Part shown: positions 1 to 21,624 of the stretch, one piece after another | Layout of the letters: the number at the start of each line of letters is the position of its first letter | Position numbering within the stretch: the stretch's first letter is position 1 | IMG/VR virus record: IMGVR_UViG_3300040801_004501 | Coordinates: 1 to 21,624 of that record | Strand: one strand, 5' to 3' | Source of the DNA: a virus | Length of the DNA: 21,624 bases | Notes under the pieces: generated by a model | Told to the model about the DNA's origin: nothing | The model's database searches: none | What the model saw: the letters and a program-made list of their open reading frames with translations, nothing else | Program-made: the position numbers and the translations under genes

Positions 1-729
1 ACGGCAAGCCCGTTAAAAATAAATATTTCAGGCTCCATGAACTTCATGCTACTGATATAGTTGATTCTCCAGCAGCGACCGATGGACTGTTTTCAACTGA
101 TTCGCTTCAATCCCAGGCAACGCAATTGCTTGATGAGAATCCTAACATTGCGGAATTCCTCTATTCCAAACCTGAACGTGTTATTGAATTTCTTAATAAT
201 TACCTTAATTCCTCAACCATGAACATTCCCGATTCCATCAAAAACCGCTTCAAAAAATTTTTTAACCTTGATTTTTCCGGTGAAACCCCGGAGGCAGGGG
301 CGCCCCCCCCGCTGCCCGAAAAAGAAAATACTGTAACAAACCCCCCTGAAATTGATGATGTTTCTGATTCATCTGAAAAAGTTGATGTTTTGGAATCTTT
401 TATCAAATCTGTGTTCTTGGAGTTTTTGCAGAATTATCCTGATGATGCAATTCAACACAATTCTGAAGATGATATTTATTTCATTGCTGACAAATCAGAT
501 GAATCTTATGTGTTGGATGCTACAAACCAAATCCTTTACATGGTTTCAAGGCATGAAGAACTTGCCAATTACAACGTCAAATGTTTGCAACACATTGACA
601 GTTTAAAAGCTGTTAATGCTGAGTTGGAAGCAAAGATTGAATCTCTTACTTCTCAGCTTGCAGCCAAACCAACAATTCCTTTGAACGTTGCTGATCCTGC
701 TATATCTGTTGGCAAACAAACTGACATTG
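1..729. repeat. Diverged terminal direct repeat, copy 1
   Basis: It aligns without gaps to 20896-21624. I count 37 substitutions in 729 positions (about 5.1%). Substitutions cluster at 29-235 and 312-633; 236-311 and 634-729 are identical. About fifteen change the protein, for example H/Q, E/M, L/P and K/E, while the frame is kept. This is a real sequence variant, not a simple read error. It implies a unit of about 20,895 bp, but the two ends come from different variants. Confidence 0.9.
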
Positions 730-800
730 CCGACAACACAGGCAAATCATTGCTTGAAAATCTTCCTCATCATTTAAGGTCCAAAATCAAAAAATCCTGA
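1..800 (+). CDS. Prohead protease-scaffold fusion, C-terminal part (cut at window start)
   Basis: The reading frame is open from the first bases (first full codon at 3) to TGA at 798-800, so this is the 3' part of a gene whose 5' part lies beyond the window. The same gene starts intact at 20463 near the other end. Joining the two copies gives about 410 residues. This part begins just after the protease core (HATDIVDSPAATDGLF, a conserved closing motif of S78-like prohead proteases). It continues through a Pro/Glu-rich linker containing a C8 tract (303-310) and an acidic stretch. It ends in a coiled coil (LQHIDSLKAVNAELEAKIES) and a basic tail. The inferred role is capsid maturation protease with a C-terminal scaffolding region that is cleaved during assembly. 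A TTG at 126 is in frame but is not needed as a start. Confidence 0.8.
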   Translation, partial: GKPVKNKYFRLHELHATDIVDSPAATDGLFSTDSLQSQATQLLDENPNIAEFLYSKPERVIEFLNNYLNSSTMNIPDSIKNRFKKFFNLDFSGETPEAGAPPPLPEKENTVTNPPEIDDVSDSSEKVDVLESFIKSVFLEFLQNYPDDAIQHNSEDDIYFIADKSDESYVLDATNQILYMVSRHEELANYNVKCLQHIDSLKAVNAELEAKIESLTSQLAAKPTIPLNVADPAISVGKQTDIADNTGKSLLENLPHHLRSKIKKS

Positions 801-928
801 TGATGAAAAAACCAAGTGCTCTAATTCAGTTCTATGGTTTACCACCGAGAAAACCTGCAACAAATCAATTAACCCCAAAACAAAAACGAAGAATCAAAAA
901 AGAACTCAAAGGCAAAAAAAAGAATTAA
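800..928 (+). CDS. Tiny basic protein after the protease-scaffold
   Basis: This 42-residue ORF starts at the ATG sharing its A with the TGA of the upstream gene (TGATGA junction), a layout typical of translational coupling. A second ATG follows at 803. The product is strongly basic in its second half (KQKRRIKKELKGKKKN) and has no hydrophobic segment. Its position between protease-scaffold and major capsid gene suggests a small structural or nucleic-acid-binding role, but no family is recognised. The coupling and clean stop 33 bases before the capsid gene support coding. Confidence 0.55.
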   Translation: MMKKPSALIQFYGLPPRKPATNQLTPKQKRRIKKELKGKKKN

Positions 929-961
929 CACTTAATTTCCAATCCTCAAATAATTATTACC

Positions 962-2329
962 ATGGCTAACATTTTTTCTCAAACCACTTCGCCGGCTTTC
1001 TCAAAACAATCAGTAAAAGAATTCTTTGTCGATCCCATGTTCATGGGTGAAGATATCAGGGGAGCTTTAACTGTCCGGACTGATGTGAAAGGAACGGAAC
1101 GTCTGAACATGATTTCCCGTCCTTCAAAAATTACTGTACCGAAAACTTCTGCAGGCTTTACAGCCGCTGGCTCTTTTGCTCTTACTTACAAAGATATTAC
1201 TGTCAAACCGATGGCAATTGAGTTTGAGCAAAATGGCCGTGCTTTCCTGGATTCAATTGTTCAGCAACTTCTGGCTCAAGGCTACAAAGAAGATGATGTA
1301 GAGCAAATGAAAGCTCCCGACGTCTGGAACAAAATCATGCTTCCTGTACTTGCTCAGGCAGGTCAACAGGACCTTATTCGTCAGATGTGGTTCAACAACA
1401 CGCTGGCTGAAACTTTTTCTTCAAGCGCTCACACTGGCGTTGCTGATGTGAATTACAATGGTTACACTGGTTTGCTTACTCACTTATATGATGCACTTGT
1501 TGCCGGAACTATTCCATCAGCGCAACATGTAGTTATCGGTACTTCAACGAGCGGAACAGCAGCAAAACAGGTTAAAACGTTGACTTATGCAAGGCATACC
1601 GACGACGTTACTTTGACCATCACTGTCAATGGAGTTGCATATTCTCAGGCTTATGCAACCGGACAAAATGAAACCATTGCTGCATGGCTGGCTGCTCACA
1701 AAGCAACCGTCGAAGCTCGTGGTGGAATGAATGGTGTTGTTGTTACTGCAGCAACCAACGTTCTCACTTTCACAGCACGTCATAAAGGTGGTCAGTTTAC
1801 GGCAACCGGTGAAGTCACTGAAGGTGGCGGAACGAAAGGAACTGTTACTGCTGGTGGCGCTGTCGCTGCTGTCAATTACGGTGCTTTATCTGCAAACGAA
1901 GCCGACACAACGCTTACTGCTATGCTGAACGCTGCTAAACCTGAACTGCTGGAATTCCCGAAGGTGTTTATGATCACGCATTCATTGTGGCGTAACCTGG
2001 TGGCAACTTTCAAAGCCCGTGCAACTGAACTTGGTGATATGGTCCTGCAGAATGGAGCAAAAGTTCCAACATACGAAGGCATTCCTATTCTCATTCGCCC
2101 TGATTGGGACATCTGGATTGCTGATGCAAATGCAAGCGTATTCCCGCACCGTGCTGTTTTGACCACTCCAAAGAATTTCATTTTCGCAACTGATGGTACT
2201 TCTGACTCAGAAATGATCGAAACCTGGTACAATCAGGAAGCTCAAATGAGAAGGTACCGAATTCAATACAAAGCTCAGACTGCTTTCCTGCATCCTGAGT
2301 TGGTTGTCCTCGCCGGTTTTGGCGATTAA
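962..2329 (+). CDS. Major capsid protein with inserted surface domain
   Basis: This 455-residue protein sits directly behind the protease-scaffold gene. It shows an N-terminal arm (1-60), an extended-loop-like segment with DITVKPMAIEF (78-88), a helical region ending LIRQMWFNN (138-146), and a C-terminal part with VFMITHSLWRNLV and GIPILIRPDWDIWI, as in capsid proteins of Bacteroidetes phages. Residues about 192-305 look like an insertion: LTITVNGVAYSQAY, then an Ala-rich helix, then VLTFTARHKGGQ, followed by Gly/Thr-rich sequence. That beta-alpha-beta pattern resembles small domains in tail sheath and tube proteins and would project from the capsid. The capsid call rests on context and overall pattern; the insertion is inferred from composition. 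The ATG at 962 follows an AT-rich leader without a Shine-Dalgarno sequence. Confidence 0.85.
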   Translation: MANIFSQTTSPAFSKQSVKEFFVDPMFMGEDIRGALTVRTDVKGTERLNMISRPSKITVPKTSAGFTAAGSFALTYKDITVKPMAIEFEQNGRAFLDSIVQQLLAQGYKEDDVEQMKAPDVWNKIMLPVLAQAGQQDLIRQMWFNNTLAETFSSSAHTGVADVNYNGYTGLLTHLYDALVAGTIPSAQHVVIGTSTSGTAAKQVKTLTYARHTDDVTLTITVNGVAYSQAYATGQNETIAAWLAAHKATVEARGGMNGVVVTAATNVLTFTARHKGGQFTATGEVTEGGGTKGTVTAGGAVAAVNYGALSANEADTTLTAMLNAAKPELLEFPKVFMITHSLWRNLVATFKARATELGDMVLQNGAKVPTYEGIPILIRPDWDIWIADANASVFPHRAVLTTPKNFIFATDGTSDSEMIETWYNQEAQMRRYRIQYKAQTAFLHPELVVLAGFGD

Positions 2330-2478: not shown

Positions 2479-2548
2479 GCCACTGTCCCGTTCGTTCTTT
2501 TACTCATAGGCCAAAAGTTATGTTGATTCCCGGGGCAGTGGCTTTTTT
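2479..2548 (+). terminator. Second long-loop terminator-like hairpin with T6
   Basis: The arms GCCACTGTCCCG and CGGGGCAGTGGC pair over 12 positions (one G-T) around a 40-base loop, with TTTTTT next. An in-frame ATG at 2520 lies inside this loop, which argues against it as the portal start and for the ATG at 2562. Confidence 0.65.
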
Positions 2549-2561
2549 AATGTCTTGTAAT

Positions 2562-3950
2562 ATGAATGACACTTTATCAAATAATAATTCCATCCCTGCT
2601 ACATCTCTCACTGATGTACCTAAAGCATTTGATAAACCTTTATTGAGAAAAGGTTCGAGTGTTAAACTGTCATCTTACAATTACACTCCGCTGTTTGATC
2701 TGAAAAATACTGACTTCATCAGTTTACGAACAAACATGCAGGAATATATTCCTTTTGGTGACGACAATCTTTTACCATCTCAACTGAACAAACTGGCAAG
2801 AGAAGTTCCGGTACACAGGGCAATACTTAACAGCAAAACAAATTATGTAATCGGTAAAGGACTTGCATCAAACAACAAAAGAATTAACGATTTCATTCGC
2901 TATCCTAATAACATCAACATTGACCTGGCTAACATCATGCGCCGGGTCGTGTATGATTATTTTTGTCACGGTAATGCTTACCTCGAATTAGTCACAGACG
3001 CCCGCAAATCGTTTCTTTTTGCGTATCACAGCGATGCCTCTAAATTCAGGGTTGCTTCAGATCTGGAACATTTCCTTATACATCCTAACTGGGAAGAATT
3101 CAAAGGCTTGAATGATGAATATACTTCTGTCTTGCCTGTCTATCCCAATTTTGAAAAAGGCCCTGACGGTTTGCTCCATTCAATCTACCATATCAAGGAC
3201 TATGAACCTGAATTCTTTTATTATGGTTTGTGTTCTTACTTTGCCGGACTTCGCTCTATTATCATTTCAGGACTTACTAATATCTGGAATCAAAGAAGGC
3301 TCGAAAAATTCTTTTCCGCTCCTGGCATGCTGATCATTCCCGGAGTTAACGACGACACAGAGGCAACAGCCCTTGACGAAGAATTTCAGAAATACATGGG
3401 TGCAAGCAGCACAAACGCAGCAGATATTATTATTCAGTATTTGTCTGACTTGCTACCTGGTCAAGCACCTCAACAGGCTCAATATATTGAATTTCAAAAA
3501 CACGAAGAGGGTAACTGGCTTGCTTTGCATCAACAGGCTGAAATGAATCTTATAACTGTACACAACTGGTTTAAATCATTAACTCCTTATTCTGCTGATG
3601 AATCTTATTTTGGCGTTGATAGAATTATTTCAGAATACGAAGTTGCAATGAGCAGCATTATTCGACCTCATCAGGACATGCTCCTAAAACATTTATTCAG
3701 AATTTTCAACGACTTTGATTTTGGCTCAAATGAAATGGACTTTATCAATGAACCGCCCGTGCTTCGTATCAATCCTTACAAATTTGTTTGGGAAGTTCGC
3801 CGTGATGCTGGCCTTGATTTTAATCCAAATGATCCTGTTCAAAATCAATTGGTAGTTCAAGTTAGAAATACTTACAATCCTAAATCAAATGTCGATCCTG
3901 CTGCTTCGGCTTCTCGTTCAACTTCTAGTAAAAATATTATTCCTCGTTAA
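2562..3950 (+). CDS. Phage portal protein
   Basis: With the ATG at 2562 the protein has 462 residues. An in-frame ATG at 2520 is rejected because it lies inside a terminator-like hairpin and encodes an unlikely hydrophobic leader. The sequence matches HK97/PBSX-type portals: a clip/wing beginning (YIPFGDDNLLPSQLNKLAREVPVHRAILNSK), then YDYFCHGNAYLELV, a stem/crown region, and a C-terminal part with RPHQDMLLKHLFRIFNDF. Twelve portal subunits would form the DNA entry ring at one capsid vertex. The connector gene starts 1 base after its stop, so the two are probably co-transcribed. Placement after the major capsid gene instead of beside the terminase is unusual. Confidence 0.85.
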   Translation: MNDTLSNNNSIPATSLTDVPKAFDKPLLRKGSSVKLSSYNYTPLFDLKNTDFISLRTNMQEYIPFGDDNLLPSQLNKLAREVPVHRAILNSKTNYVIGKGLASNNKRINDFIRYPNNINIDLANIMRRVVYDYFCHGNAYLELVTDARKSFLFAYHSDASKFRVASDLEHFLIHPNWEEFKGLNDEYTSVLPVYPNFEKGPDGLLHSIYHIKDYEPEFFYYGLCSYFAGLRSIIISGLTNIWNQRRLEKFFSAPGMLIIPGVNDDTEATALDEEFQKYMGASSTNAADIIIQYLSDLLPGQAPQQAQYIEFQKHEEGNWLALHQQAEMNLITVHNWFKSLTPYSADESYFGVDRIISEYEVAMSSIIRPHQDMLLKHLFRIFNDFDFGSNEMDFINEPPVLRINPYKFVWEVRRDAGLDFNPNDPVQNQLVVQVRNTYNPKSNVDPAASASRSTSSKNIIPR

Positions 3951-3951
3951 T

Positions 3952-4377
3952 ATGATTGATTTCCCTATTGCCATATTCGACGTTGCGTCATTCACTGTTG
4001 ACGAAGCTATTTCAGAATCTGAATTGCTTGAAGTTCAAAATCTATACATCAAGCCAATTCTTGGTGATTCTCTTTATGCTGATTTTCTTTCCAATCTTGC
4101 TGACGAGAAATACACCAAACTTAAATCTTATGCTGTCAACTGTGCTCAAAGGTGGCTGTATTACAGATCGTTATCTAAAAAACTTGTCTTTAAGGATTTC
4201 CTTGAGAATTCCGCTGAGTCTCCTGGAGTGTTCAAAGCTTCCATTGAATCAGCGTATCAGATGGCTAATTCTGCTTCGCGGGCCTTACGTTCTCACGTCG
4301 AAAGTTCCAGTTATGAACTTTACACCCTGCCAACTAAAAAACGTGTTTCCGGATTTTTACTAAACTCAACTTCCTAA
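3952..4377 (+). CDS. Head-tail connector / adaptor-like protein
   Basis: This 141-residue ORF begins 1 base after the portal stop. It contains LLEVQNLYIKPILGDSLYADFL followed by a helical Lys/Ala-rich segment (NCAQRWLYYRSLSKK). The IKPILGD-LY signature and size resemble DUF6712-type proteins found right behind portals in Bacteroidetes phages, thought to act like gp6-type head completion adaptors. It would sit under the portal and close the filled head. This is the last gene that I can assign to the head-tail junction; no stopper, tail terminator or tube protein follows. An alternative start at 3889 lies inside the portal gene and is not needed. Confidence 0.65.
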   Translation: MIDFPIAIFDVASFTVDEAISESELLEVQNLYIKPILGDSLYADFLSNLADEKYTKLKSYAVNCAQRWLYYRSLSKKLVFKDFLENSAESPGVFKASIESAYQMANSASRALRSHVESSSYELYTLPTKKRVSGFLLNSTS

Positions 4378-4448: not shown

Positions 4449-5318
4449 ATGTTTCGCTCTAATCTTCCAAAACAATATTTATTTCACGTTTTCAAAGTTC
4501 TGATTTCTGGCGTTTCTGAACTCACTGCTCTGTTTAACAATCTTCAAGCTTTGGCCCTCGAAATTTCCAGGGAGTTTGAAATTCTTACTAAAACCTATGG
4601 AATTAACCTTGTCGATTCTCTTAGTTCTCCAATATTTTCAGGAATACACCGTGCATTTTCAGCTTCTTTTGATATTACTGATTTTGACTCTGTTAATAAA
4701 GATACTTTTACTCTTGACTACAATCATTGGAACTTATCTACTCAATTTGCCGAAGATTCCCGAATTAAACTCGAATCTGCTACCGGTGAAATATTTTTTG
4801 CAACTGTAAAAGAATCATCCTGGAATTTAGAAGATGAACCTTATGGAACAGTAATTGTCATCAATGAAGAATGTCCTATAACTCCAATTTCTGCCAGGTA
4901 CGAAAAAAATATTGAAGTTAAATTTTCAGAACTTTTATTAAGGGATGGAAGTGTTGAAATGCTTTCGCTTGACGAAACTGTTTATGACACTTCAATGATC
5001 GGTGAATCTGATTATTTGTACTTGTCTGCTGAATACGGGGACATCACTGCTGACTTTCCTGCAAATACGATTATCCTTCTTGGTGGTGTTTCCTACCCTG
5101 CTAAACCCGACTACAAAATTCTCACTGTTGATTCAACTTCTTATGACAATTTTGGTGGAATGCTTCCAATGAGTACCCGCCTGAATTTCACGGAAAATAT
5201 TTCACCAATTGTCCAAGTTGAAAAAGTTACCAAATTCATTGCATTCACCCCAACCAACGACCAACACATTGCAACGAAAAAATATGTTGATGATGCTATC
5301 GCAGCCGCCTTATTGTAA
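4449..5318 (+). CDS. Fibre-like structural protein with KKYVDDAI tail
   Basis: The 289-residue product has a helical N-terminus (LTALFNNLQALALEISREFEIL), a beta-rich middle with repeated short strands, and a C-terminal signature NDQHIATKKYVDDAIAAAL. The ATKKYVDDAI motif is a hallmark of phage tail-fibre and base-plate-associated proteins, where it typically begins a trimeric coiled-coil or fibre segment. Here it is at the very end, so the protein may be a fibre anchor onto which later proteins assemble. It is the first gene of the 4449-7855 block, and a heptamer repeat array precedes it. Virion role is inferred; the exact function is unknown. Confidence 0.6.
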   Translation: MFRSNLPKQYLFHVFKVLISGVSELTALFNNLQALALEISREFEILTKTYGINLVDSLSSPIFSGIHRAFSASFDITDFDSVNKDTFTLDYNHWNLSTQFAEDSRIKLESATGEIFFATVKESSWNLEDEPYGTVIVINEECPITPISARYEKNIEVKFSELLLRDGSVEMLSLDETVYDTSMIGESDYLYLSAEYGDITADFPANTIILLGGVSYPAKPDYKILTVDSTSYDNFGGMLPMSTRLNFTENISPIVQVEKVTKFIAFTPTNDQHIATKKYVDDAIAAALL

Positions 5319-5338
5319 CAAACTATAATTTACTTAAA

Positions 5339-6664
5339 ATGTCTGATTTATCTTATCTCAAAAAAATATCATCTCCTGAAGGGCAGATTGAACTTCTTCA
5401 TGAAAATTATAAAAAGATTGAAGAAATAGTTGTCCAAGCTGAAACAGTGATGAATGAATTTGTTTCTTTCATTCGTGAACTATCAACTTTTTTTAACTTA
5501 AACGATGATTCTTCTTTATTGCCTGCTGATACTGCAGTAGTTCACGTTTTAGGTCCTGATATACTTCATCCTGATAATCCTCCTACAAGGATGTATTTTA
5601 CTTGTGACTTAACAGAGGCAGGTGAAAATGATTTTTCCATTACTGCATCTGGTTCTGCATCTGTTTCTGTTACAACTTCTGCTGATGGTTCACTAACATT
5701 ATATAAACTTGAAATCCTTTGTCCTGCAAATCAATCTGGTCATGTTTTTATTAAAGGTAAACAGTTTATCCGTAGTCTTGGTAATCACCGTGGAGAATCA
5801 AATCCTAATACTTCATTATTTGCCTCTTATGCTGCCGATGATGCTGTAAAAGTATTTTTCAATATCGATCTTGACAATAACTTGATTGAAAAAATTAATA
5901 TTTCCTATAACACCCCTGCATTTCAAATCATGGGTTCAGGCTCATTGCCCACTTCATTGAAATATCTGAAACTTACTGGTTCTAATATTTCACTAAAGAA
6001 AATCGATAACCCTACATTGCCTTATTGTACTCATTTTATTCTTCATGAACTTTACTGCGATATTAATATTGATTCTGCTTTGAGCTTGCCCGCTGCTAAA
6101 TATATTTCAATTGAATCCAGTAACATTAGCGGTGTATTTAGCCCTGTATTTACATCTAATGAAATCATTGAACTGATCATAATGTCTTCTGATAATCTAA
6201 AATGCGATTTTTCAGATGACTATTTTTTAAACCTCACTGCCATGACCAAAACTAAACTGTTAGGCCAGGGTATAAGATATTCTGGCGAATTCCCTTCTTC
6301 TGTGCATACCCTTGCGCTTGAAAGTGCGAACATTGATCTTGTTGCTTCTGATCTTACAAATATTGATGGCACTGTTGAAAGTATTGTTCTTTATCAATTT
6401 ACAAGTGCTCCCTTTGGTACTGAGTTTCTTAAAGATATTTTTCAATTATTCAGTGAGAATATTTCTGAATATTCAAGCAATTCCATTCAGGTTCGGAATT
6501 ACAACATGGAACATAGCTGGGCCGAACTTGAAGCTGCCGAAATGGACCTTAACGGTACTGCCTTAGAACAATTGAAATATTATCTCTATTCTTTTAGTAA
6601 TAACTTTCAATGTTTCTTTATTCATATCAATAATTTTAATGTTGCGCCTTTATTATGGCCTTAA
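5339..6664 (+). CDS. Solenoid-like (leucine-rich-repeat-like) surface protein
   Basis: The 441-residue protein starts with a coiled coil (EGQIELLHENYKKIEEIVVQAETVMNEF cut into helices at about 13-45). A beta-rich Ser/Thr region follows at about 70-140. The rest is an irregular run of short strand-turn units, such as SLKYLKLTGSNISL, AAKYISIESSNISG and SVHTLALESANIDL, spaced by about 20-40 residues. These L-x-L-x-x-[ST]-N-I units resemble BspA/LRR solenoids. It lies 20 bases after the fibre-like gene. The layout (coiled-coil anchor, then ligand-binding solenoid) suggests a receptor-binding spike, but no named family is certain. There is no signal peptide. Confidence 0.5.
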   Translation: MSDLSYLKKISSPEGQIELLHENYKKIEEIVVQAETVMNEFVSFIRELSTFFNLNDDSSLLPADTAVVHVLGPDILHPDNPPTRMYFTCDLTEAGENDFSITASGSASVSVTTSADGSLTLYKLEILCPANQSGHVFIKGKQFIRSLGNHRGESNPNTSLFASYAADDAVKVFFNIDLDNNLIEKINISYNTPAFQIMGSGSLPTSLKYLKLTGSNISLKKIDNPTLPYCTHFILHELYCDINIDSALSLPAAKYISIESSNISGVFSPVFTSNEIIELIIMSSDNLKCDFSDDYFLNLTAMTKTKLLGQGIRYSGEFPSSVHTLALESANIDLVASDLTNIDGTVESIVLYQFTSAPFGTEFLKDIFQLFSENISEYSSNSIQVRNYNMEHSWAELEAAEMDLNGTALEQLKYYLYSFSNNFQCFFIHINNFNVAPLLWP

Positions 6665-6689
6665 ATCCTTAATCTTTAATTTAAATCAC

Positions 6690-7046
6690 ATGAACATGTC
6701 AACTTTCAGAAAATCAATCCACGTTCTCAACCTTTCGGCTGGGAGCAATCCCGTTAAGTCTTCGCCTATCATGGTGGAGCCCGGAACATTCATGACCATG
6801 CAATTTGCTTTCAGCCTTGCTTCTGATGATGCTTCTGTTTTGTCTGTCGAACAAAGCGCCGACGGTGCAAACTTCGACACAGTAAAGGATGCCAACGGTG
6901 ACGCCGTTACGCTCAGCCTGGTTAAAACTGAAACGTCTGCCACGCTGAACATTGCAGAACTGGTCACCGTCTGGATTCGCTTCTCTGTCGAGTTCGCAGC
7001 AGATGAAACCGGATCAATCTCTGGTGTGACAATCTTATCTTACTAA
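6690..7046 (+). CDS. Small beta-sandwich structural protein
   Basis: The ATG at 6690 (a second ATG at 6696) gives 118 residues. An earlier in-frame ATG at 6639 overlaps the upstream gene and adds an unlikely leader. The sequence alternates strands, with PIMVEPGTFMTMQFAFSLA, VLSVEQSADGANFDTVKD and SATLNIAELVTVWIRFSVEF. The SxDGxxFDTVKDxxG pattern and WIRF strand look like an immunoglobulin- or discoidin-type sandwich as found in phage decoration and fibre-tip proteins. Codon choice is more GC-rich here than in its neighbours, suggesting separate acquisition. Probably a virion surface protein; assignment is by context. Confidence 0.5.
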   Translation: MNMSTFRKSIHVLNLSAGSNPVKSSPIMVEPGTFMTMQFAFSLASDDASVLSVEQSADGANFDTVKDANGDAVTLSLVKTETSATLNIAELVTVWIRFSVEFAADETGSISGVTILSY

Positions 7047-7059
7047 CTTATCTTACTAA
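7034..7059 (+). repeat. Perfect 13-bp tandem duplication
   Basis: CTTATCTTACTAA occurs twice back to back. The first copy overlaps the end of the upstream gene (its TAA stop), and the second fills the gap before the next gene. Confidence 0.85.
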
Positions 7060-7078
7060 CTTTCTCAAAAGTATAGTT

Positions 7079-7855
7079 ATGATTCACAAATCTTTAAAAG
7101 TCCCTATTCGCTGTGCTATCCCGGTTTTTTCCAAATCCGGTGCCGCACCGGAACCGCCCCGCCCGGTTTCACTTGTCATGTATGGCAGGCTTTATTCTTC
7201 TGCTGCTTTTCTAAACAAAGTTCTTATAACTGACTTTAATGTTCCTTCATTAGTAGATTTTCAAACTCTTGATAGTTATGTAAATAGCATTCATGGTAAT
7301 ATTGTTGGTAAAGTTCTTAAGCATTGCCGCCACACATCTACTCCTTTAGGTGAACCTTGTCAAACTTCTGATCATCCTCGTTGGACAACTCATGGCTCAG
7401 TACATGGATTGAATTCTAAGTTTTTTAGTGCTTTGCCAGCTGGTTACGGCTCTACTTCTAAAGTCTCATATGAGCTTGGAACACATTGTCATCTTTATTC
7501 TCGTTCTCCTTCTGATACAAGATATCATAAATTTTATCTTCAAAATACATATGATATTGCTTATTTTTCCACTTCTCACGCTAACACTTTTAACAGCATC
7601 CGGCTTGTACGTTCTGCATCAGCCGAAGAACAATTGCTTTCTGATGGTTCTTTAGTTGGCTATGCTTATGATTTTAACTTGAATCAATATGACCTTGTTA
7701 AAATTGGCACTCAAATATGGACTGTTCAAAATTTTGCCGGCACTAAATACACAAATGGAAATAGTATTTCATCATCTTATTATATGTCTCCAAACAGTGA
7801 TAATAATATGATCTTTTTCGCCAACGAAGAAGCTTCAATCTGGAAATATGAGTAA
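7079..7855 (+). CDS. FISUMP-domain surface protein (probable receptor-binding)
   Basis: The 258-residue product carries the Fib_succ_major (FISUMP) signature. Residues about 48-180 hold the lobe FNVPSLVDFQTLDSYV ... FSALPAGYGS ... SIRLVR. Residues about 205-230 hold the segment DLVKIGTQIWTVQNFAGTKYTNG, which normally opens the domain. The two parts therefore appear in the order C-lobe then N-lobe, and the protein ends soon after. FISUMP domains occur in secreted Bacteroidota proteins and in phage fibre tips and are thought to bind surfaces. It overlaps the next gene by 8 bases. It is a plausible host-range determinant if the particle has its own adhesion apparatus. No signal peptide is visible. 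Confidence 0.65.
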   Translation: MIHKSLKVPIRCAIPVFSKSGAAPEPPRPVSLVMYGRLYSSAAFLNKVLITDFNVPSLVDFQTLDSYVNSIHGNIVGKVLKHCRHTSTPLGEPCQTSDHPRWTTHGSVHGLNSKFFSALPAGYGSTSKVSYELGTHCHLYSRSPSDTRYHKFYLQNTYDIAYFSTSHANTFNSIRLVRSASAEEQLLSDGSLVGYAYDFNLNQYDLVKIGTQIWTVQNFAGTKYTNGNSISSSYYMSPNSDNNMIFFANEEASIWKYE

Positions 7856-8081: not shown

Positions 8082-8123
8082 TCCGTGGCATTCTCAAAAT
8101 ACATCCGTTAATCTCATTCATCA

Positions 8124-8446: not shown

Positions 8447-8452
8447 AATACT

Positions 8453-9291: not shown

Positions 9292-9373
9292 AATCATTGA
9301 CCTTTTTCTTTTTCTTAGTAGAGAATCATGATGTTTATCTGAATTTCCCTTCCCGCTTTCCGCTATATCTTTT

Positions 9374-14214: not shown

Positions 14215-14227
14215 AACCCCTATAATT

Positions 14228-14719
14228 ATGGAAAAAACGCACTGGAAAAAATGGACAAACCCGGACTACATCGGAACTTATATTTTAAGTCCCGGTGAAG
14301 AAAAAACTGTTAAAATTAAAAAAGTTATCAGGGAAATGGTCACCGGCATGAACGGTAAGAAGGAAGAATGCACCGTCGCACACCTGGAGAATGAGAAACC
14401 GTTCATACTTAACCGCACAAACTGCAAGATCATTGCTAAACTCTACAACAGTCCCTATATAGAAGACTGGCCCGGCAAACTTATTACAATCTATGCCGCA
14501 AAAGTCAACGCATTTGGTGAAGAAGTAGATGGTCTTCGTATCAGACAAAATCTTCCAACGCCTTTCAAACTTCCCGATTTGACCCCTACCCACCCAAAAT
14601 GGGGTGATGTTGCAACTGCTATCCAAAATGGTTTCACAATTGAGCAAGTGAAAACAAAATATGCGGTCAGTCCTGATAATGAAAAACTACTATTGGAATA
14701 CTTAAACGACAAACCCTAA
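14228..14719 (+). CDS. Conserved Bacteroidetes-phage early protein, replication/recombination context
   Basis: The ATG at 14228 gives 163 residues; an earlier in-frame ATG at 13991 lies inside another gene. The sequence MEKTHWKKWTNPDYIGTYIL ... REMVTGMNGKKEECTVAHLE ... NRTNCKIIAKLYNSPYIEDW matches a widespread Bacteroidota prophage family next to nuclease and annealing genes. It looks like a beta-rich core (about 1-120) plus a C-terminal helical tail (WGDVATAIQNGFTIEQVKTK). Function is not established; a DNA-binding role beside the exonuclease at 15186 is inferred. No classical RecT/Beta annealing protein is otherwise seen. Confidence 0.65.
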   Translation: MEKTHWKKWTNPDYIGTYILSPGEEKTVKIKKVIREMVTGMNGKKEECTVAHLENEKPFILNRTNCKIIAKLYNSPYIEDWPGKLITIYAAKVNAFGEEVDGLRIRQNLPTPFKLPDLTPTHPKWGDVATAIQNGFTIEQVKTKYAVSPDNEKLLLEYLNDKP

Positions 14720-14724
14720 ATAAT

Positions 14725-14937
14725 ATGATAAACTTTGATTTATCCTGGGACTTAAATGAGTTCAGGAAATATCAACCTCAATCCTTTGATGTTGATGGTA
14801 AATGTTATCCTGGAACGCCCGTTTCAGCTAATCTTGCTGAAACGATGCTGAGCCTGATCAACAGGCTCGAATCAGAAGTATTAAGTCTTGAATCAAAAAT
14901 TGATCTTCTTGAAGAATTCATCAACTGGAGGTCTTAA
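14725..14937 (+). CDS. Small coiled-coil early protein
   Basis: A 70-residue ORF starting 5 bases after the preceding stop. Its C-terminal half (MLSLINRLESEVLSLESKID) is a coiled coil; the N-terminal half has aromatic strands (INFDLSWDLNEFRKYQPQSF). Its stop abuts the next ATG. No family is recognised. Confidence 0.5.
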   Translation: MINFDLSWDLNEFRKYQPQSFDVDGKCYPGTPVSANLAETMLSLINRLESEVLSLESKIDLLEEFINWRS

Positions 14938-15189
14938 ATGACAAGCATTAATCAATTTACATGTATAAACATCCGGGAACTGCCTGCTTGGATGCTTACA
15001 TTTCGCTCCCTGGGCATCACCGATCCAGAAACAATACTTAAGGAATTAACCCTCATTGATGATCTGCTTACAATATCTAAAAGTTACGTTTTGTTAAATC
15101 GCAAGCGTGGTTTAAAAGTTATGTTGGAGGCCCGCATTGGTAAAGAACTTGGCCATAAAACCCCTAACCTTAACACCCGCCCAAAATGA
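14938..15189 (+). CDS. Small helical early protein before nuclease
   Basis: An 83-residue ORF begins directly after the preceding stop and overlaps the exonuclease ATG by 4 bases. The sequence (FRSLGITDPETILKELTLID ... KRGLKVMLEARIGKELG) is helical and basic toward the end. The tight coupling suggests that it works with, or is made in proportion to, the nuclease. No family is recognised. Confidence 0.5.
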   Translation: MTSINQFTCINIRELPAWMLTFRSLGITDPETILKELTLIDDLLTISKSYVLLNRKRGLKVMLEARIGKELGHKTPNLNTRPK

Positions 15190-15884
15190 AAAACACCGCT
15201 AACATCCCTGTCTTTCGTATCAAAGCCCACAAAGCCCGTGATATTATGACTGATGATAAATCCAGGAAAGGACCTGGTAAAACCGTTATTTCATACCTGG
15301 AATCCTGGACAAAAGAACATCTTTACCAGCGAAGAAAGGCGTTTTACAGTAAATATACAGACAAAGGTTTATTCGTAGAAGGCGAAGCAATCCAATACCT
15401 AAGCGAACATTTAAACCTGGGCATGCTCTTCAAAAATGAAAAACGCTTTGAAAATGAATTCATGTTGGGAATCCCGGATATCATTCTAACTCATTTCATT
15501 ATTGAAGTCAAATCTTCATGGGACCCTTTTACATTTCCTTTATTCTCATCTGAACCCGACCCTCAAAACTTCTGGCAATGTCAGGTTTACATGCACTTAA
15601 CAGGTAAACCTCTGTGCAAACTCGTACACGTACTCGTTGACACTCCCGACCACCTCATTGACAGGGAGCTCCAATACATTGCAAACGACCTTAATCAGGT
15701 TGAACTGGAACCAGAACAGGTTGCTGAGTTTCGAGCTTCAATGAAATACAATCACTTGCCCCCGGAACTTCGATTAAAGGTGTTCAATATTCCTTACAAC
15801 CCGGATGCTATTAAGGCAATTCAACACCGTGTTGAGCAGTGCCGCCTGATCATTTCTAACTATTTATCTTCATATTATGTCTAA
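15186..15884 (+). CDS. PD-(D/E)XK exonuclease, YqaJ/lambda-exo-like
   Basis: The 232-residue protein shows the restriction-endonuclease-fold motifs in order: GLFVEGEAIQYL (Glu65/Glu67), GIPDII with D98, IIEVKS with E107-x-K109, and FWQCQVYMHLTG (Gln131, Gln133, Tyr135). This is the set of YqaJ/RecB-type phage exonucleases, which resect double-stranded ends to make 3' tails for annealing and replication. It overlaps both neighbours (4 and 8 bases), typical of an early operon. No paired annealing protein is recognised, so the small proteins at 14228-15189 are candidates. Confidence 0.75.
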   Translation: MKNTANIPVFRIKAHKARDIMTDDKSRKGPGKTVISYLESWTKEHLYQRRKAFYSKYTDKGLFVEGEAIQYLSEHLNLGMLFKNEKRFENEFMLGIPDIILTHFIIEVKSSWDPFTFPLFSSEPDPQNFWQCQVYMHLTGKPLCKLVHVLVDTPDHLIDRELQYIANDLNQVELEPEQVAEFRASMKYNHLPPELRLKVFNIPYNPDAIKAIQHRVEQCRLIISNYLSSYYV

Positions 15885-16671
15885 AGACCCGGCATTTTTA
15901 TTCTACCCTAACGACTGGCTTGGTGGTACAATGCTTTTTTCTCGTCTCCATAAGGGCGCTTATATGGATGTCCTTATGGCACAGTTTAATCACGGCCATA
16001 TGGCGCTGCAAGATATTGAAATTTTGCTCGGTGTTGACTTTAATAATGTCTGGCCGAAACTGAAAACTAAATTTTGTCAAGACGAAAACGGCTTGTATTT
16101 TAACCCCCGCCTCGAGCTGGAGATCAACAAACGCAAGGGTTACGTCGTTTCGCGCCGGCAAAATTTAAATTCAAATTCTTCTAAAAATTATAAAAAAAGT
16201 AAAACTCATATGGCGCCCCATATGAATAGCCATATGGAAAATGAAAATGAAAATAGAAATGAAAATAGAAATAAAGATGAAATAAGAAAGGGGGGTGTGG
16301 GGGGAAAACATAATTTGGCCCTAACTGTAGTTGATAAATTTCGTCAGGCTTATTTCGAATCAAGAAACCAACAGTACTTAACACCGCTTATTGAAAAAGA
16401 AATTTCAGCTGCAGATAAATTAATCCAGCTTCATCTTGATGCGAACCCAAATAACAATAACGATGAAATACTTGAAGCCCTTTATCAATATTTCCTTAAA
16501 GCTTGCCTCATCAAAAACCAATGGCTCTATGATAATATGAGCCTCCCCATTCTTGTTGGAAAATTCAACGAAATCAATCAAACACTTAGAAGCAATGTCA
16601 ATAACAGAAAACTTTCAACTTCAGAAAAACTCACAACCGCAGAGCGTATCATTACTGCACTCTATGATTAA
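15877..16671 (+). CDS. DUF1376-like replication initiation protein
   Basis: The 264-residue product opens with KDPAFLFYPNDWLGGTMLFS and GAYMDVLMAQFNHGHM, the DUF1376 (YdaU-type) winged-helix beginning of phage replication proteins. A low-complexity linker follows (ENENENRNENRNKDE). A C-terminal helical part (about 145-264) is comparable to helicase-loader or DnaD-like tails. Such proteins bind the origin and recruit host helicase. The linker DNA holds three CATATG words and two G6 runs, so it may be a variable region. The gene overlaps its downstream neighbour by 8 bases. Confidence 0.7.
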   Translation: MSKDPAFLFYPNDWLGGTMLFSRLHKGAYMDVLMAQFNHGHMALQDIEILLGVDFNNVWPKLKTKFCQDENGLYFNPRLELEINKRKGYVVSRRQNLNSNSSKNYKKSKTHMAPHMNSHMENENENRNENRNKDEIRKGGVGGKHNLALTVVDKFRQAYFESRNQQYLTPLIEKEISAADKLIQLHLDANPNNNNDEILEALYQYFLKACLIKNQWLYDNMSLPILVGKFNEINQTLRSNVNNRKLSTSEKLTTAERIITALYD

Positions 16672-17338
16672 AAGAAACATTGTAGACCTCATCAAGTACG
16701 AAAGGAATATGACTGTTCAAATCGCAGCCAATTCTTTACTGATTAAAAACCTCATCAAAATGTCTGGTGAGGAAAATGTTCTCAAAGCTATTTCGAACCT
16801 GATCATTGTTACTTCTGAATACTTTAACACTTTTACGCCCATCAACGAAGTGCAGGCTATTCAAATTGCGAGTCTGTTTATTGACCAATACAGCCTCGAA
16901 ACCTATGAGGACTTGGTATTGTGTTTCAAATATGCTAAACTCAACCGGTATGGCAATGTCACCCGTTTTGACGGCCAGGTTATTTTTTCCTGGTTTCATC
17001 AATATCTCAATGAAAAGTATGAATACATTGAAAATCAACACAAACAACATAAATATGATATTATTGATATGAACACCAAAACACTGCAACTTGCAAGCAG
17101 TCATTTATTAAATAACATTAACGAAAGAATTGTTGAACGCAATGAAACCAAACCCGTTTCACTCAATGAAAACAAGCACTGGCAAAAGTTCCTCGAAGTA
17201 GTTGCACATGCCGAACCTGAGCAACTTCAGGAACTACTGGATGACTATACCCGCCACCTGAACGCCGGAAACAAAACCGTAACACCCTACATCGAAGCAA
17301 TTAAATCAGCAATGTCCTCACCCCCCTTAAAGTACTAA
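16664..17338 (+). CDS. Replication-associated protein (helicase-loader-like position)
   Basis: The ATG at 16664 gives 224 residues; earlier in-frame starts lie within the replication gene. The sequence (NSLLIKNLIKMSGEENVLKA ... EVQAIQIASLFIDQYSLETY ... FKYAKLNRYGNVTRFDGQVI) matches a Bacteroidota phage family found beside replication initiators (DUF6633-like). It is all-helical with the conserved Y-G-x-V-x-R-x-D-G-x-x-I-x-x-W core at about residues 88-105. No ATPase motif is present. A role as loader adaptor is inferred from position. Confidence 0.55.
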   Translation: MIKRNIVDLIKYERNMTVQIAANSLLIKNLIKMSGEENVLKAISNLIIVTSEYFNTFTPINEVQAIQIASLFIDQYSLETYEDLVLCFKYAKLNRYGNVTRFDGQVIFSWFHQYLNEKYEYIENQHKQHKYDIIDMNTKTLQLASSHLLNNINERIVERNETKPVSLNENKHWQKFLEVVAHAEPEQLQELLDDYTRHLNAGNKTVTPYIEAIKSAMSSPPLKY

Positions 17339-17342
17339 ACAA

Positions 17343-17534
17343 ATGAATACAACAAATGAAGATTATCAACCTTTCGGAGATGATTGGAAAGCTGATATGA
17401 TGAAGTTGACTAAACAACAATTAATTGAACTGCTGAAAAATACATGGAGCCAATGCCAGCACCCATGGCACAGCGTTGTCGGAGATGGTGAAACCCAACC
17501 CGCCAGATGTTTAAAGTGTAACAAAATATTGTAA
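17343..17534 (+). CDS. Small putative zinc-ribbon protein
   Basis: The 63-residue product has a helical N-terminus (KADMMKLTKQQLIELLKNTW) and a C-terminal half with C-x2-P-W-H ... C-L-K-C-N, a probable metal site. It starts 4 bases after the preceding stop. A small DNA- or protein-binding accessory in the replication operon is likely; no family is named. Confidence 0.5.
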   Translation: MNTTNEDYQPFGDDWKADMMKLTKQQLIELLKNTWSQCQHPWHSVVGDGETQPARCLKCNKIL

Positions 17535-17584
17535 CGGGCTGGCGGTATGCGTTCGTTTTTATTTACGGATTAAAATAACGAATT

Positions 17585-17716
17585 ATGATTACTAAAGAAT
17601 TTTTAAAAGCAGAACTTGATAAATTAGATAGAAATACTTTCGGCAGTGTCTGTTTAATTGGCTATAACAAGGTTGTATATTCACACAACACCATTTTTTA
17701 TGAATCAGCAATTTAA
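17585..17716 (+). CDS. Tiny early protein
   Basis: A 43-codon ORF (MITKEFLKAELDKLDRNTFG SVCLIGYNK...) starts 50 bases after the preceding stop and overlaps the VRR-NUC start at 17700 by 17 bases. The overlap layout matches other pairs in this operon and supports coding. No family is recognised. Confidence 0.45.
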   Translation: MITKEFLKAELDKLDRNTFGSVCLIGYNKVVYSHNTIFYESAI

Positions 17717-18206
17717 ACCTTTAATCAAACTGAAATCTGAGCATCTGGCTTTAAAACATCCATCGGTGCCTAAACATGCCCTACCCAAACCAAAATATAA
17801 ATCTAAAAATGCCAACTCATTAACCCGTGCTATCATTGACTACCTTAACCTATCCGGACACCAGGCGGAAAGAATTTCATCATCCGGAAGATGGATTGAA
17901 ATAAAAAACTCTGAAGGTCATAAAATAGGTCAGGGTCAGTGGATTCCGGGTACTGGCACCAAAGGAACCGCTGATATTTCAGCAACCATATTTGGAAAAT
18001 CTGTTAAAATCGAAGTCAAAATTGGAAAAGATAAACAGTCTGATCACCAAATCCGGTACCAGGAACAAATCCTCAAAGCTGGCGGGTTCTACTGGATTGC
18101 AAAAGATTTTGACCACTTCCTGGAACAATACACCCTCTTTTCTAATTCTCACCGGCCAGATGGGGGGGGCTGCGTCAGCGCTCCAACCCTCAACCCTTCC
18201 CTATAG
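17700..18206 (+). CDS. VRR-NUC family nuclease
   Basis: The ATG at 17700 gives 168 residues (a TTG at 17658 is also in frame but less likely). Residues 40-145 show the VRR-NUC fold: LTRAIIDYLNLSGHQAERIS, GTADISATIFGKSVKIEVKI with D92 and E105-x-K107, and DHQIRYQEQILKAGGFYWIA with Gln117 and Gln121. Family members are PD-(D/E)XK nucleases linked to phage helicases or Holliday-junction processing; no helicase gene is visible here. After the domain, the frame runs through a G8 tract (18162-18169) into a Pro/Ser tail that looks unrelated; one G fewer would open a different longer tail. It is the last early gene, convergent with the terminase. Confidence 0.75.
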   Translation: MNQQFKPLIKLKSEHLALKHPSVPKHALPKPKYKSKNANSLTRAIIDYLNLSGHQAERISSSGRWIEIKNSEGHKIGQGQWIPGTGTKGTADISATIFGKSVKIEVKIGKDKQSDHQIRYQEQILKAGGFYWIAKDFDHFLEQYTLFSNSHRPDGGGCVSAPTLNPSL

Positions 18207-18671: not shown

Positions 18672-19859
18672 TTATTCAAACATCCTGATCGCTGATACCC
18701 TCATCTTGCGCTTCTGCATAAATTCAAGCGAAGTGATGACGTAACCCAATGCATCTATTGCATGATTATACCTGTCAATCGGTTCATTCAACTCCCGACC
18801 ATCTGCAGTGGTCCTCCATTTGTAATTCCGCAACTCCCTGATCAGGTTCACCGAACTCTTTGTGACATTCATTTTATACCGCTTCAGGATATCAATCCTC
18901 GTCTTGATGATTCCTGCAGGCTTATAGGCCGGTTCTATATTGAATCCCAACTTCTTAAGCTCATAAATCAATTCCGGTTTCCTGTCGCTTATGATTCTGT
19001 CTTTATCTGTTATCCCTAACTCATTCATCCATCTGGCTAACTCGGTTGCTATCAAACCCCGACTGTAAATTAACTCATCAATCCAAAGCTGATCATCAAA
19101 TTTTACTACCTTGATCAATGCCGTCGGATCAGTCTGAAATCCATAGTCCATTCCATAACTTACCCATCTGCAATCTTGATCATTTGGCATCCTGTCTACT
19201 TGCTCCCAATTGCTAAATATAACTCCCTTGATTTGTCCTGGTATTCCTAAACCGTATATTTTCCAGTACTCTTCATCCATTTCTTTTAACAGTTCGATCT
19301 CTTTTACCATCGATTCTGGCAACCAGGGATTATCTTTGTACGTCGAATGGATAAAAGTACAATCATCCCTTGGCAATACTTTTTCATATATCCAGTGGTC
19401 AGGCGGTATAGAAGGGTTGTAATCCAAAAATATCTGCTTTTCTGTCCTGATGGCTAACTGTACCCAATCTTCTAAACTCAATTCATTCGCTTCATTCAGA
19501 AATAAATAATGCCGCTTCGCACCTCGTTTCTTTTGTGGCTGATCTAAACTGATAAATTCAAAGATATTGCCGTTTAACTCATATATATTTTCTGTCTTGT
19601 TGTGGCACTTCTCATCATACATGCCATGCTGACTTAATATCTCTATGAAGTCCCGCATTGCTGTCATTCTTAATGATGGAAATGTTTTCCTGACTATTGT
19701 AAATATCTGGTCTTTTTCTTGTACTGACTTGACAAATATCAGCAATTGCAATATCGAATAGGTTTTACCCGACCTGCTCGATCCTTGATTAACTACTATC
19801 TTTGTTTGTGCTTTGCTGTTTTTTTCAAACACGCAACTTGCCTGTAATGCCTTGATCAT
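18672..19859 (-). CDS. terL: Terminase large subunit
   Basis: The 395-residue protein has the ATPase and nuclease parts of PBSX/Terminase_3 type packaging motors. The Walker A is GSSRSGKT (26-33), the Walker B-like strand is HYLFLNEAN (117-125, with Asn before Glu), and FLDYNPS is at 144-150. The nuclease shows YGMDYG with D238, SDRK with D292 and AIDALGY with D369. It cuts concatemeric DNA and pumps it through the portal. The length is slightly short but complete. It overlaps the small subunit by 4 bases (ATGA). Unlike most phages, it is on the strand opposite to the capsid and portal genes. Confidence 0.92.
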   Translation of the reverse strand: MIKALQASCVFEKNSKAQTKIVVNQGSSRSGKTYSILQLLIFVKSVQEKDQIFTIVRKTFPSLRMTAMRDFIEILSQHGMYDEKCHNKTENIYELNGNIFEFISLDQPQKKRGAKRHYLFLNEANELSLEDWVQLAIRTEKQIFLDYNPSIPPDHWIYEKVLPRDDCTFIHSTYKDNPWLPESMVKEIELLKEMDEEYWKIYGLGIPGQIKGVIFSNWEQVDRMPNDQDCRWVSYGMDYGFQTDPTALIKVVKFDDQLWIDELIYSRGLIATELARWMNELGITDKDRIISDRKPELIYELKKLGFNIEPAYKPAGIIKTRIDILKRYKMNVTKSSVNLIRELRNYKWRTTADGRELNEPIDRYNHAIDALGYVITSLEFMQKRKMRVSAIRMFE

Positions 19860-20185
19860 TGCTCAATCATTTTTGGCTTTTCTCCCGGGTTGACGATCTC
19901 TATCAGTATTTTCTCAATCTTCTGCTCCATATGTTCTGACTTCATTTCGACCCGTGCAAGTTTCGGCAATGTAAATTCCAGTAAATCTATAAACATCCTG
20001 ACCCTGTCTCTGTGTGACAAGTTTCTGATTGATTCAATGAGGTCTTCCTGTATAGTTTCAAATACCATTTTCAATCTTTCCTCTTGTTCAACTGTAAATT
20101 TGTGACGGGCGCCCATAGGTTTTCCCGGATTTCCTGGCTTAAAGTGCCACGGCTTACGTTCTTTTTTCTTTGCTACGAATTCCAT
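19856..20185 (-). CDS. Terminase small subunit-like protein (GNPGKPMGARHK type)
   Basis: The 109-residue product opens with a basic segment and KPGNPGKPMGARHKF, typical of DUF5681-like proteins preceding terminases in Bacteroidetes phages. A helical region follows (EERLKMVFETIQEDLIESIR, DRVRMFIDLLEFTLPKLARV) and a charged tail. It is translationally coupled to terL. Its role as the DNA-recognition subunit is inferred from position and the Gly/Pro/Arg motif; no classical HTH is apparent. A TGTTACTTTTGT box (inverted at 20208-20219) lies 23 bases upstream of its ATG. Confidence 0.7.
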   Translation of the reverse strand: MEFVAKKKERKPWHFKPGNPGKPMGARHKFTVEQEERLKMVFETIQEDLIESIRNLSHRDRVRMFIDLLEFTLPKLARVEMKSEHMEQKIEKILIEIVNPGEKPKMIEQ

Positions 20186-20301
20186 CGTATTTTCCCTTCT
20201 TTTTTTTACAAAAGTAACATTTGTTAAACTTTTTTTTCATTTTTTGTTGTTTTTTCGATTTTCTGTTTTACTTTTGTTTCATCATTTTAATCTTTTACCC
20301 C
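20186..20301. promoter_or_regulatory. Divergent late control region (terminase / capsid)
   Basis: On the minus strand, TGTTACTTTTGT (20208-20219) is identical to the two immunity-region boxes and contains a TACTTTTG -7 element just before terS. On the + strand, TACTTTTG at 20269-20276 is preceded by TTG at 20247-20249, a 19-base spacing fitting the Bacteroidota -33/-7 layout, 25 bases before the ATG at 20302. The region is poly-T-rich on the + strand. Both late units may be shared targets of one regulator. Confidence 0.65.
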
Positions 20302-20457
20302 ATGACAACCTCTTACAAATCCAAATTACCGCGCAAAAATGTTCCAAAAGTTTCTCAACCCGCCTTTGGAATGGGCAGCACAATTGCTTCTAAACAAGCT
20401 AAAACCAAGACCGTTGTTAAATTCAAGGCCGGTGCAGAACTTGCCAGTAAAGTTTAA
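20302..20457 (+). CDS. Short basic protein with HU-tail-like end
   Basis: The ATG at 20302 gives 51 residues and is the first gene of the capsid unit, starting 25 bases after the -7 element. The C-terminal stretch KTKTVVKFKAGAELASKV resembles the closing strand and helix of HU-family proteins (VKFKxGKxLKxAV), whereas the N-terminal part (KSKLPRKNVPKVSQPAFGMG) is a basic disordered-like tail. It could be a mini nucleoid-type DNA-binding peptide or a scaffolding accessory. The resemblance is short and may be chance. It ends 5 bases before the protease start. Confidence 0.5.
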   Translation: MTTSYKSKLPRKNVPKVSQPAFGMGSTIASKQAKTKTVVKFKAGAELASKV

Positions 20458-20462
20458 CAGCC

Positions 20463-21624
20463 ATGATACGCTACTTCTCATCTCAGCCCGTTTTTGATGC
20501 GCCCATTTCCGGTGTAGACCGTAATAATGGAATCATCAAGGGTATTACAGTAGCCAAAGTTGGCAATGCAAAAGGTCACAACATCAAACTTGATCGCAAA
20601 TTCCTACAACAGATTGTTGACCAGGCTAATTCCCGCCCCCAGGGTATAAAGGCCCGTTTCGGTCATCCCAATGCTTGTTCAACCGCCCTGGGCACTTACC
20701 TGGGCAGGTTCAAAAACTATTCTTACCATTCCGATCATGTCAAGGCTGATCTTTTCCTTGATGATACAGCCCGCAAAGCTCCATCCGGAAATCTCTATGA
20801 TTATGTCCTTGAAATGGCTCTTAACAACCCTGACATGTTCGGTGCTTCTATTGCTTTCCAATCCGCTGAATTAGAGGAACTTGAAGAATCTGAAAACGGC
20901 AAGCCCGTTAAAAATAAATATTTTAGGCTCCAGGAACTTCATGCTACTGATATAGTTGATTCTCCAGCTGCTACCGATGGACTGTTTTCAACTGATTCGC
21001 TTCAATCTCAGGCAACGCAATTGCTTGATATGAATCCTAACATTGTGGATTTCCTCTATTCTAAACCTGAACGTGTTATTGAATTTCTTAATAATTACCT
21101 TAATTCCTCAACCATGAACATTCCTGATTCCATCAAAAACCGCTTCAAAAAATTTTTTAACCTTGATTTTTCCGGTGAAACCCCGGAGGCAGGGGCGCCC
21201 CCCCCGCCGCCCGAAAAAGAAAATACTGTAACAAACCCCCCTGAAATTGATGATTCTTCTGATTCATCTGAAAATGTTGATGTTTTGGAATCTTTTATCG
21301 AATCTGTTTTCCTGGAGTTTTTACACAATTATCCTGATGATGCAGTTCAGCACAATTCTACAGATGATATTTATTTTATCGCTGACGAATCAGAACAATC
21401 TTATGTTTTGAATGCTACAAATCAAATCCTTTACATGGTTTCAAGGCATGAAGAACTTGCCAACTACAATGTAAAATGTTTGCAACACATTGACAGTTTG
21501 AAAGCTGTTAATGCTGAGTTGGAAGCTAAGATTGAATCTCTTACTTCTCAGCTTGCAGCCAAACCAACAATTCCTTTGAACGTTGCTGATCCTGCTATAT
21601 CTGTTGGCAAACAAACTGACATTG
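20463..21624 (+). CDS. Prohead protease-scaffold fusion, 5' part (runs off window)
   Basis: ATG at 20463 with the frame open to the window end (387 full codons). The N-terminal region (1-170) shows the S78-like prohead protease layout: KARFGHP with His68, FGASIAF with Ser129 and the closing DIVDSPAATDGLF. Then come a linker with AP-rich C8 tract and acidic residues, and a coiled coil. Through the diverged overlap with 1-800 the full length is about 410 residues. It processes capsid and scaffold during head maturation. Compared with copy 1, about fifteen residues differ, mostly in the linker, not in the catalytic part (which lies outside the shared stretch). Confidence 0.8.
   Translation, partial: MIRYFSSQPVFDAPISGVDRNNGIIKGITVAKVGNAKGHNIKLDRKFLQQIVDQANSRPQGIKARFGHPNACSTALGTYLGRFKNYSYHSDHVKADLFLDDTARKAPSGNLYDYVLEMALNNPDMFGASIAFQSAELEELEESENGKPVKNKYFRLQELHATDIVDSPAATDGLFSTDSLQSQATQLLDMNPNIVDFLYSKPERVIEFLNNYLNSSTMNIPDSIKNRFKKFFNLDFSGETPEAGAPPPPPEKENTVTNPPEIDDSSDSSENVDVLESFIESVFLEFLHNYPDDAVQHNSTDDIYFIADESEQSYVLNATNQILYMVSRHEELANYNVKCLQHIDSLKAVNAELEAKIESLTSQLAAKPTIPLNVADPAISVGKQTDI
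20896..21624. repeat. Diverged terminal direct repeat, copy 2
   Basis: Counterpart of 1-729, equal in length, offset 20,895, about 94.9% identical, no indels. It lies inside the protease-scaffold gene. It marks the unit length and shows that two variants were joined in one sequence. Confidence 0.9.

Follow-up and report, generated by a model that had tools for sequence, protein, structure and literature searches.

How does an element that encodes its own head and packaging machinery, and in which no tail can be recognized, deliver its DNA to a new cell? The question is raised by an IMG/VR virus contig (record IMGVR_UViG_3300040801_004501, positions 1 to 21,624), and we will refer to this whole stretch of 21,624 nucleotides as the window. 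The initial annotation listed a complete set of head, packaging, lysogeny, and replication genes without tail genes, and family, PHROG, and Pfam matches bear this out. It represents, in complete form, a family of Bacteroidales elements that has apparently not been described before. We propose, with a probability of about one half, that this family is a lineage of temperate phages that lost its long tail and infects by means of its portal, adaptor, and fibers.

A complete unit with a head module and no recognizable tail

Positions 1–729 of the window are repeated at 20896–21624 (692 of 729 nucleotides identical, 37 mismatches, 94.9%), so the window is one whole 20,895-bp unit, circular or concatemeric, with nothing cut off. 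Two strain variants, or two copies lying side by side, would account for the 5% difference between the unit ends. The plus strand carries, in the order listed here, the genes from the protease-scaffold to three membrane proteins; the large and small terminase subunits (TerL and TerS, 18672–20185), the integrase (from 11869), and the repressor are on the minus strand.

20463–21623, across the unit boundary and ending at 800, plus strand: protease-scaffold (function suggested by position)
962–2329, plus strand: major capsid protein (phrog_1623, virion structural protein, 1.3e-6)
2520–3950, plus strand: portal protein (phrog_11226, 2.3e-12)
3952–4377, plus strand: putative head adaptor (connector), helical (position after the portal and homology)
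4449–5318, plus strand: 289-aa fiber- or neck-like protein (position after the adaptor; ends in the motif ATKKYVDDAI)
5339–6664, plus strand: leucine-rich-repeat (LRR)-like fiber or adhesin protein, a weak assignment (weak LRR match, E = 0.006)
6696–7046, plus strand: jelly-roll virion protein (kept downstream of the adaptor in relatives)
7079–7855, plus strand: fiber tip-like protein of 258 aa with a Fib_succ_major domain (Pfam PF09603, 3.6e-10)
7848–8731, plus strand: three small membrane proteins (77, 94, and 92 aa) resembling holins or spanins (placed in the lysis region by position)
18672–19859, minus strand: TerL (Pfam Terminase_3, 6.9e-25; phrog_2, 4.1e-38)
19856–20185, minus strand: TerS (position and family conservation)

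The element encodes its own capsid, protease, portal, TerS, and TerL, with protease and TerS assigned by position and family conservation. Judging from sequence similarity, its terminase, portal, and capsid form an HK97-type module that is homologous to the module of a tailed sister lineage, discussed below. Across 13 relatives, the capsid protein is 55–66% identical and the portal 43–69% identical. The protease-scaffold is 38–51% identical to the gene that precedes the capsid gene in relatives and matched no curated family. TerS is 31–43% identical to the gene adjoining TerL in relatives, and its PHROG match, to a family of unknown function, reaches only 2.9e-4. A nucleotide search of phage records with the window, and protein searches with its capsid and portal, gave no match in the collection searched. 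In viral contigs, a single-sequence portal scan found no relatives, whereas alignment-based searches did find them.

The adaptor gene is kept downstream of the portal (17 aligned sequences), also in the tailed sister lineage, and its predicted role comes from this position and from homology to the post-portal gene of those tailed relatives. Its structural model (predicted local distance difference test, pLDDT, of 80.7) consists of helices, with a hairpin at the C terminus, and matched no known fold significantly; the matches listed do not include known adaptors, an absence that excludes nothing.

We considered TerL as a guide to kinship and rejected it. The window's TerL is mostly 50–56% identical to the TerL of many viral contigs in which no other gene in common with the window was found. 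The family itself has two types of TerL, which are only about 30% alike. TerL has probably been exchanged.

None of the window products scanned matched a family of tail tubes, tape measures, sheaths, terminators, or lysins, and PHROG and Pfam gave no stopper, terminator, or HNH match among them. No tail-tube or tape-measure genes were seen in about 38 loci of the family either. When 65 products of the relevant regions were scanned against PHROG, no tube, tape-measure, or terminator family was among the matches listed (25 of 167 families). Several tail-annotated matches were attributed to fiber-type members, and the scan was repeated on 48 products without the large fiber proteins: the 24 families matched included some named tail or tail spike protein and no tape measure, tube, sheath, or terminator. 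Fiber, spike, and lysis families were matched in these regions. The absence of the tail is not due to chance, because it recurs in about 38 loci and because the same searches recognize the tape measure of a tailed relative.

A tailed sister lineage

That relative belongs to a sister lineage with a related head module, which is distant from the family and comprises a Bacteroidales prophage (L130) and viral contigs that reach 36 kb (L148, L150–L156). Its genes run from tail genes and tape measure through small genes, a ClpP-type protease, capsid, a gene of 171–204 aa, portal, and adaptor-like gene(s) to the fiber. The order protease-capsid-portal-adaptor-fiber is common to both lineages; the sister phages differ in having a tape measure of 931–1261 aa, tail-tip genes, the 171–204 aa gene between capsid and portal, and the ClpP-type protease. 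(The 931-aa protein of L130 matches tape-measure PHROGs and is homologous to the 1174–1261-aa proteins of the sister contigs.) Between sister lineage and tail-less family, portals are about 29–38%, capsids 23–32%, and adaptors 29–31% (L144, L145) identical.

The distance from TerL to the protease is 682–1681 bp in 23 tail-less loci, as compared to about 7.8 kb in L130, and the capsid and portal genes of tail-less loci are usually adjacent. Sister portal and capsid proteins match all 34 of 34 tail-less records (some of which overlap), and two sister adaptors match 18–21 of the 34, while the sister tape measure, tail tip, and capsid-portal gene match 0 of 34. Our guess is that the capsid-portal gene encodes the tail tube; a profile search of the PDB with it gave no match. 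In a tree of portal proteins, the sister sequences are on very long branches, and a single clade for the tail-less group is not settled.

A locus of phage origin (L131 and L132; G134:C8 and G233:C8) occurs in two Bacteroidales genomes that are rich in GC. It has genes of about 155, 337, and 803 aa, a ClpP-type protease, capsid, a gene of 174–179 aa, portal, and adaptor, followed by similar lipoproteins of 835–957 aa. No tape measure is visible in it. This may be a conserved domesticated locus.

The family and its hosts

Searching with the capsid protein brought up nine additional viral contigs as well as 20 loci in genome contigs, almost all of them in metagenome-assembled genomes (MAGs) of Bacteroidales or Bacteroidetes; together with whole-genome searches, there are about 38 related loci in all. 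A few titles name Alphaproteobacteria, Gracilibacteria, or Anaerolineaceae, and these contigs were probably assigned to the wrong bin. In an even draw from the order, 6 of 393 genomes carry the family (E below 1e-200). Genomes have one to four capsid genes, and there is a fifth, interrupted TerL in G010:C38. In the literature searched, we found neither a satellite nor an HK97-type family without a tail described for Bacteroidota.

The common gene order begins with the integrase, regulators, replication genes with a VRR-type nuclease, and cargo. TerL/TerS and an 80-aa gene come next, on the opposite strand, followed by protease, capsid, portal, adaptor, jelly-roll, fiber(s), small membrane genes, endolysin, and a spanin-like gene. 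One integrated relative is complete (G015:C154). It lies at tRNA-Ser(GCT) and is bounded on each side by the 23-bp repeat GGTTCGAATCCCCCCCTCTCCGC, the two repeats being 24,271 bp apart. Between these attachment (att) repeats are the head, fiber, and lysis genes, and its cargo is an N6 methylase plus a specificity subunit. No tail gene was recognized in this complete 24.3-kb element.

Elements carry cargo between the replication genes and TerL (L139, 12293–14701, and cargo regions of G015:C19 and G368:C19, L106 and L125): an N6 methylase with its specificity subunit and, by inspection of the sequence, large sensor-kinase-like proteins and response regulators. Two elements are head to head in G010:C121 (L111, 10919–15467), next to neighboring tRNA-Ser(TGA) and tRNA-Ser(CGA), and a 400-aa gene separates their integrases. 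MAG39 (L098–L101; G018:C3, G018:C8) has two intact 7.7-kb head cassettes, each ending in a LamG protein. These have no integrase or lysis genes nearby, and they may be minimal or domesticated forms.

Fibers, selection, and lysis genes

Most relatives encode fiber-like proteins. The window product of 4449–5318 has no family match, no relatives in viral contigs, and no solved homolog; it is our leading candidate for a neck piece or nozzle, and a novel nozzle may be encoded within 4449–6664. At the place of the window's LRR-like gene, one relative has a BspA-type LRR protein (2.7e-33). Modeling the jelly-roll protein from a nine-sequence alignment gave a beta-sandwich (pLDDT 84.2) whose closest fold is PBSX XepA (Z = 10.3), with others including a BPP-1 virion chain (Z = 9.3) and carbohydrate-binding modules. 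As many unrelated beta-sandwiches score similarly, the model is firm as to fold class only, and it does not suggest a tail tube. The two models yielded a jelly-roll and an unassigned helical fold, and no tail-tube, tail-completion, or lysin fold, any of which would have counted against the initial annotation's reading, was found among the window products. Homologs of the 258-aa Fib_succ_major-type product also lie just outside TerL in several copies (L133, L137; G010:C38, G010:C52).

The ratio of nonsynonymous to synonymous substitution rates (dN/dS), computed between closely related elements, is 0.02–0.08 for TerL, protease, capsid, portal, adaptor, and fiber, and 0.06 for lysozyme. The fiber is under similar constraint to the head, yet it is more divergent (87–92% identity, vs. 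97–98% for the capsid). Comparison of both copies in MAG39 gave 91% identity for the capsid protein and only 32% for the terminal LamG protein, whose dN/dS is 0.45. We infer that LamG diverges as expected of a receptor-binding protein.

The initial annotation also found no lysin. This holds for the window, whose scanned products include holin-like membrane proteins and no recognized endolysin, but not for the family: many relatives encode a phage lysozyme (5.6e-37 and 8.6e-35), a GH108 protein with a peptidoglycan-binding domain (2.7e-21), or an Amidase_2 protein (3.4e-10), and a weak match to peptidase M15 (0.0012) was seen as well. Small membrane, lysozyme, and Rz-like genes of relatives occupy the place of the window's genes at 7848–8731. 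In many relatives, on inspection of the sequence only, the endolysin is followed by a spanin-like lipoprotein or membrane gene.

Lysogeny, replication, and noncoding sequence

The remaining features of the window are as follows.

11869–13089, minus strand: tyrosine integrase (Pfam PF00589, 2.4e-17)
13144–13476, minus strand: helix-turn-helix repressor (phrog_8, 2.7e-4)
13606–18206, plus strand: replication and nuclease module with exonuclease, primosomal/DUF1376 protein, and VRR-type nuclease (PHROG matches and homologs in other elements)
9345–9431, minus strand: Flavo-1 small RNA (Rfam RF01705, 61.1 bits)

The matches in the replication module are exonuclease (phrog_5715, 2.2e-34), phrog_3992 (3.7e-5), and VRR-type nuclease (phrog_93, 2.5e-6). 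The Flavo-1 RNA sits in a 1.7-kb stretch (9292–10985) with almost no coding sequence, and a 35-nt repeat at 10705–10739 shares 89% with the Flavo-1 RNA stretch.

Tail loss, tail borrowing, or decay

As a tail-less head could be completed by a helper phage, we searched 15 host genomes for one. (These are draft MAGs, and the tail markers do not cover every tail type.) Nearly all strong matches to TerL in these genomes belong to the elements themselves, and searches for portal and TerL_ATPase (PF03354) found none beyond the elements. A tape-measure family is present in 6 of the 15 genomes, and G016 contains part of a prophage that is akin to the one with a tape measure in G368. In all, 7 of the 15 show some tailed prophage. 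The other 8, which include G015 (with the complete element) and G010 (with the most copies), gave no other tailed-prophage signal. Elements and tailed prophages were seen together in only part of the hosts; a helper, if there is one, may be a virulent phage.

Because the elements have their own fibers and their own lysis genes, we favor the view that they complete their life cycle unaided and have a minimal tail. The element would integrate at tRNA genes and later be induced; its own terminase would fill its heads, and its own genes would lyse the host. Jelly-roll and fiber proteins mounted on the adaptor would bind new hosts, and the DNA would exit through portal and adaptor with no tube, as in a podovirus with an exceptionally reduced tail. 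The strictest form of this proposal is a self-sufficient temperate lineage with an HK97-type head and neither tail tube nor nozzle, in which portal, adaptor, and fibers alone deliver the DNA; we consider it less likely than not. The initial annotation's rival explanation, a small phage with a short, unfamiliar tail made from 4449–7855, fits somewhat better than a cf-PICI (capsid-forming phage-inducible chromosomal island). Several points weigh against our proposal. No nozzle, needle, or ejection protein was recognized among the products scanned, so delivery across a Gram-negative envelope is unexplained, and the window itself has no recognized endolysin. A tail-borrowing satellite would likewise arise when a tailed lineage loses its tail genes, and MiniFlayer shows that fiber-bearing heads without tail genes can be a satellite (PMC10690885). 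Finally, the limits of the helper search, with draft hosts, incomplete tail markers, and a possibly virulent helper, count here too.

A helper-dependent satellite is still in play because the long-tail module was lost, the adaptor was kept, and MiniFlayer sets a precedent (PMC10690885). If it worked like a cf-PICI, it would make and fill its own heads and take tails from a helper phage, which we consider less likely than our proposal but a serious rival. The cf-PICIs have their own capsid protein, protease, portal, and both terminase subunits and no tail genes (PMC10690885), as does the window, and the missing sister-lineage tail genes beside a retained adaptor, the small size (20.9 kb vs. 35–36 kb for sister contigs), the several copies per genome, and the tailed prophages in 7 of 15 hosts would all suit tail borrowing. 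In contrast to cf-PICIs, relatives here carry endolysins and spanin-like genes, and most carry fiber-like genes; of the connector set and HNH endonuclease of cf-PICIs, only an adaptor, assigned by position and homology, was found among the products scanned. The element's own fibers are under selection, and 8 of 15 hosts have no detected resident helper. Also, satellites lack lysis genes (PMC11389934) and a cf-PICI would depend on its helper for lysis, whereas relatives of the window encode lysozyme, GH108, amidase, and spanin-like proteins (the window itself, holin-like proteins only). The initial annotation's idea of a Bacteroidota cf-PICI is right as to a real Bacteroidota family; cf-PICI membership is unsupported, given the relatives' endolysins, spanin-like genes, and variable fibers, the host genomes (about half) in which no resident tailed prophage was seen, and the adaptor as the only connector piece found.

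The fibers could instead attach tail-less heads to a helper virion so that both enter together. MiniFlayer has heads and a fiber, no tail, and fibers that bind the helper's neck (PMC10690885), and its gross gene content is the same. It and MulchRoom, which are satellites of Streptomyces phages, have full head and packaging genes and no tail genes, and the likeness extends to the fiber of MiniFlayer and the integrase of MulchRoom (PMC10690885). Here, however, the host phylum is another, and fiber, integrase, repressor, and (in relatives) lysis genes occur together; MiniFlayer-type elements have no lysogeny module, and the window has integrase and repressor. LamG, BspA-LRR, and Fib_succ_major domains also seem more typical of cell-surface binding. 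Hitchhiking of this kind is very improbable. The elements could also be decayed prophages or domesticated head cassettes like those of gene transfer agents, given that some copies (MAG39, G010:C30) have no lysis and integrase genes nearby and one (G014:C165) is clearly broken. This is very improbable: gene transfer agents do not excise or integrate on their own, and here the window is a closed unit with an integrase, a complete element with att sites exists, purifying selection is strong, and 24 of 25 capsid genes (from 14 genomes) have no internal stops.

The phi29-like small podoviruses have genomes of about 20 kb and a short-tail organization. The window resembles them in size and, on our proposal, in organization; it differs in its integrase and TerL/TerS, and no tail knob was found. 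To our knowledge, almost all HK97-type phages need some tail for DNA delivery. With a conserved tail-less lineage beside a tailed sister, the smallest DNA-delivery machine for a Gram-negative cell becomes testable, and the same pair of lineages makes it testable how phages become tail-borrowing satellites.
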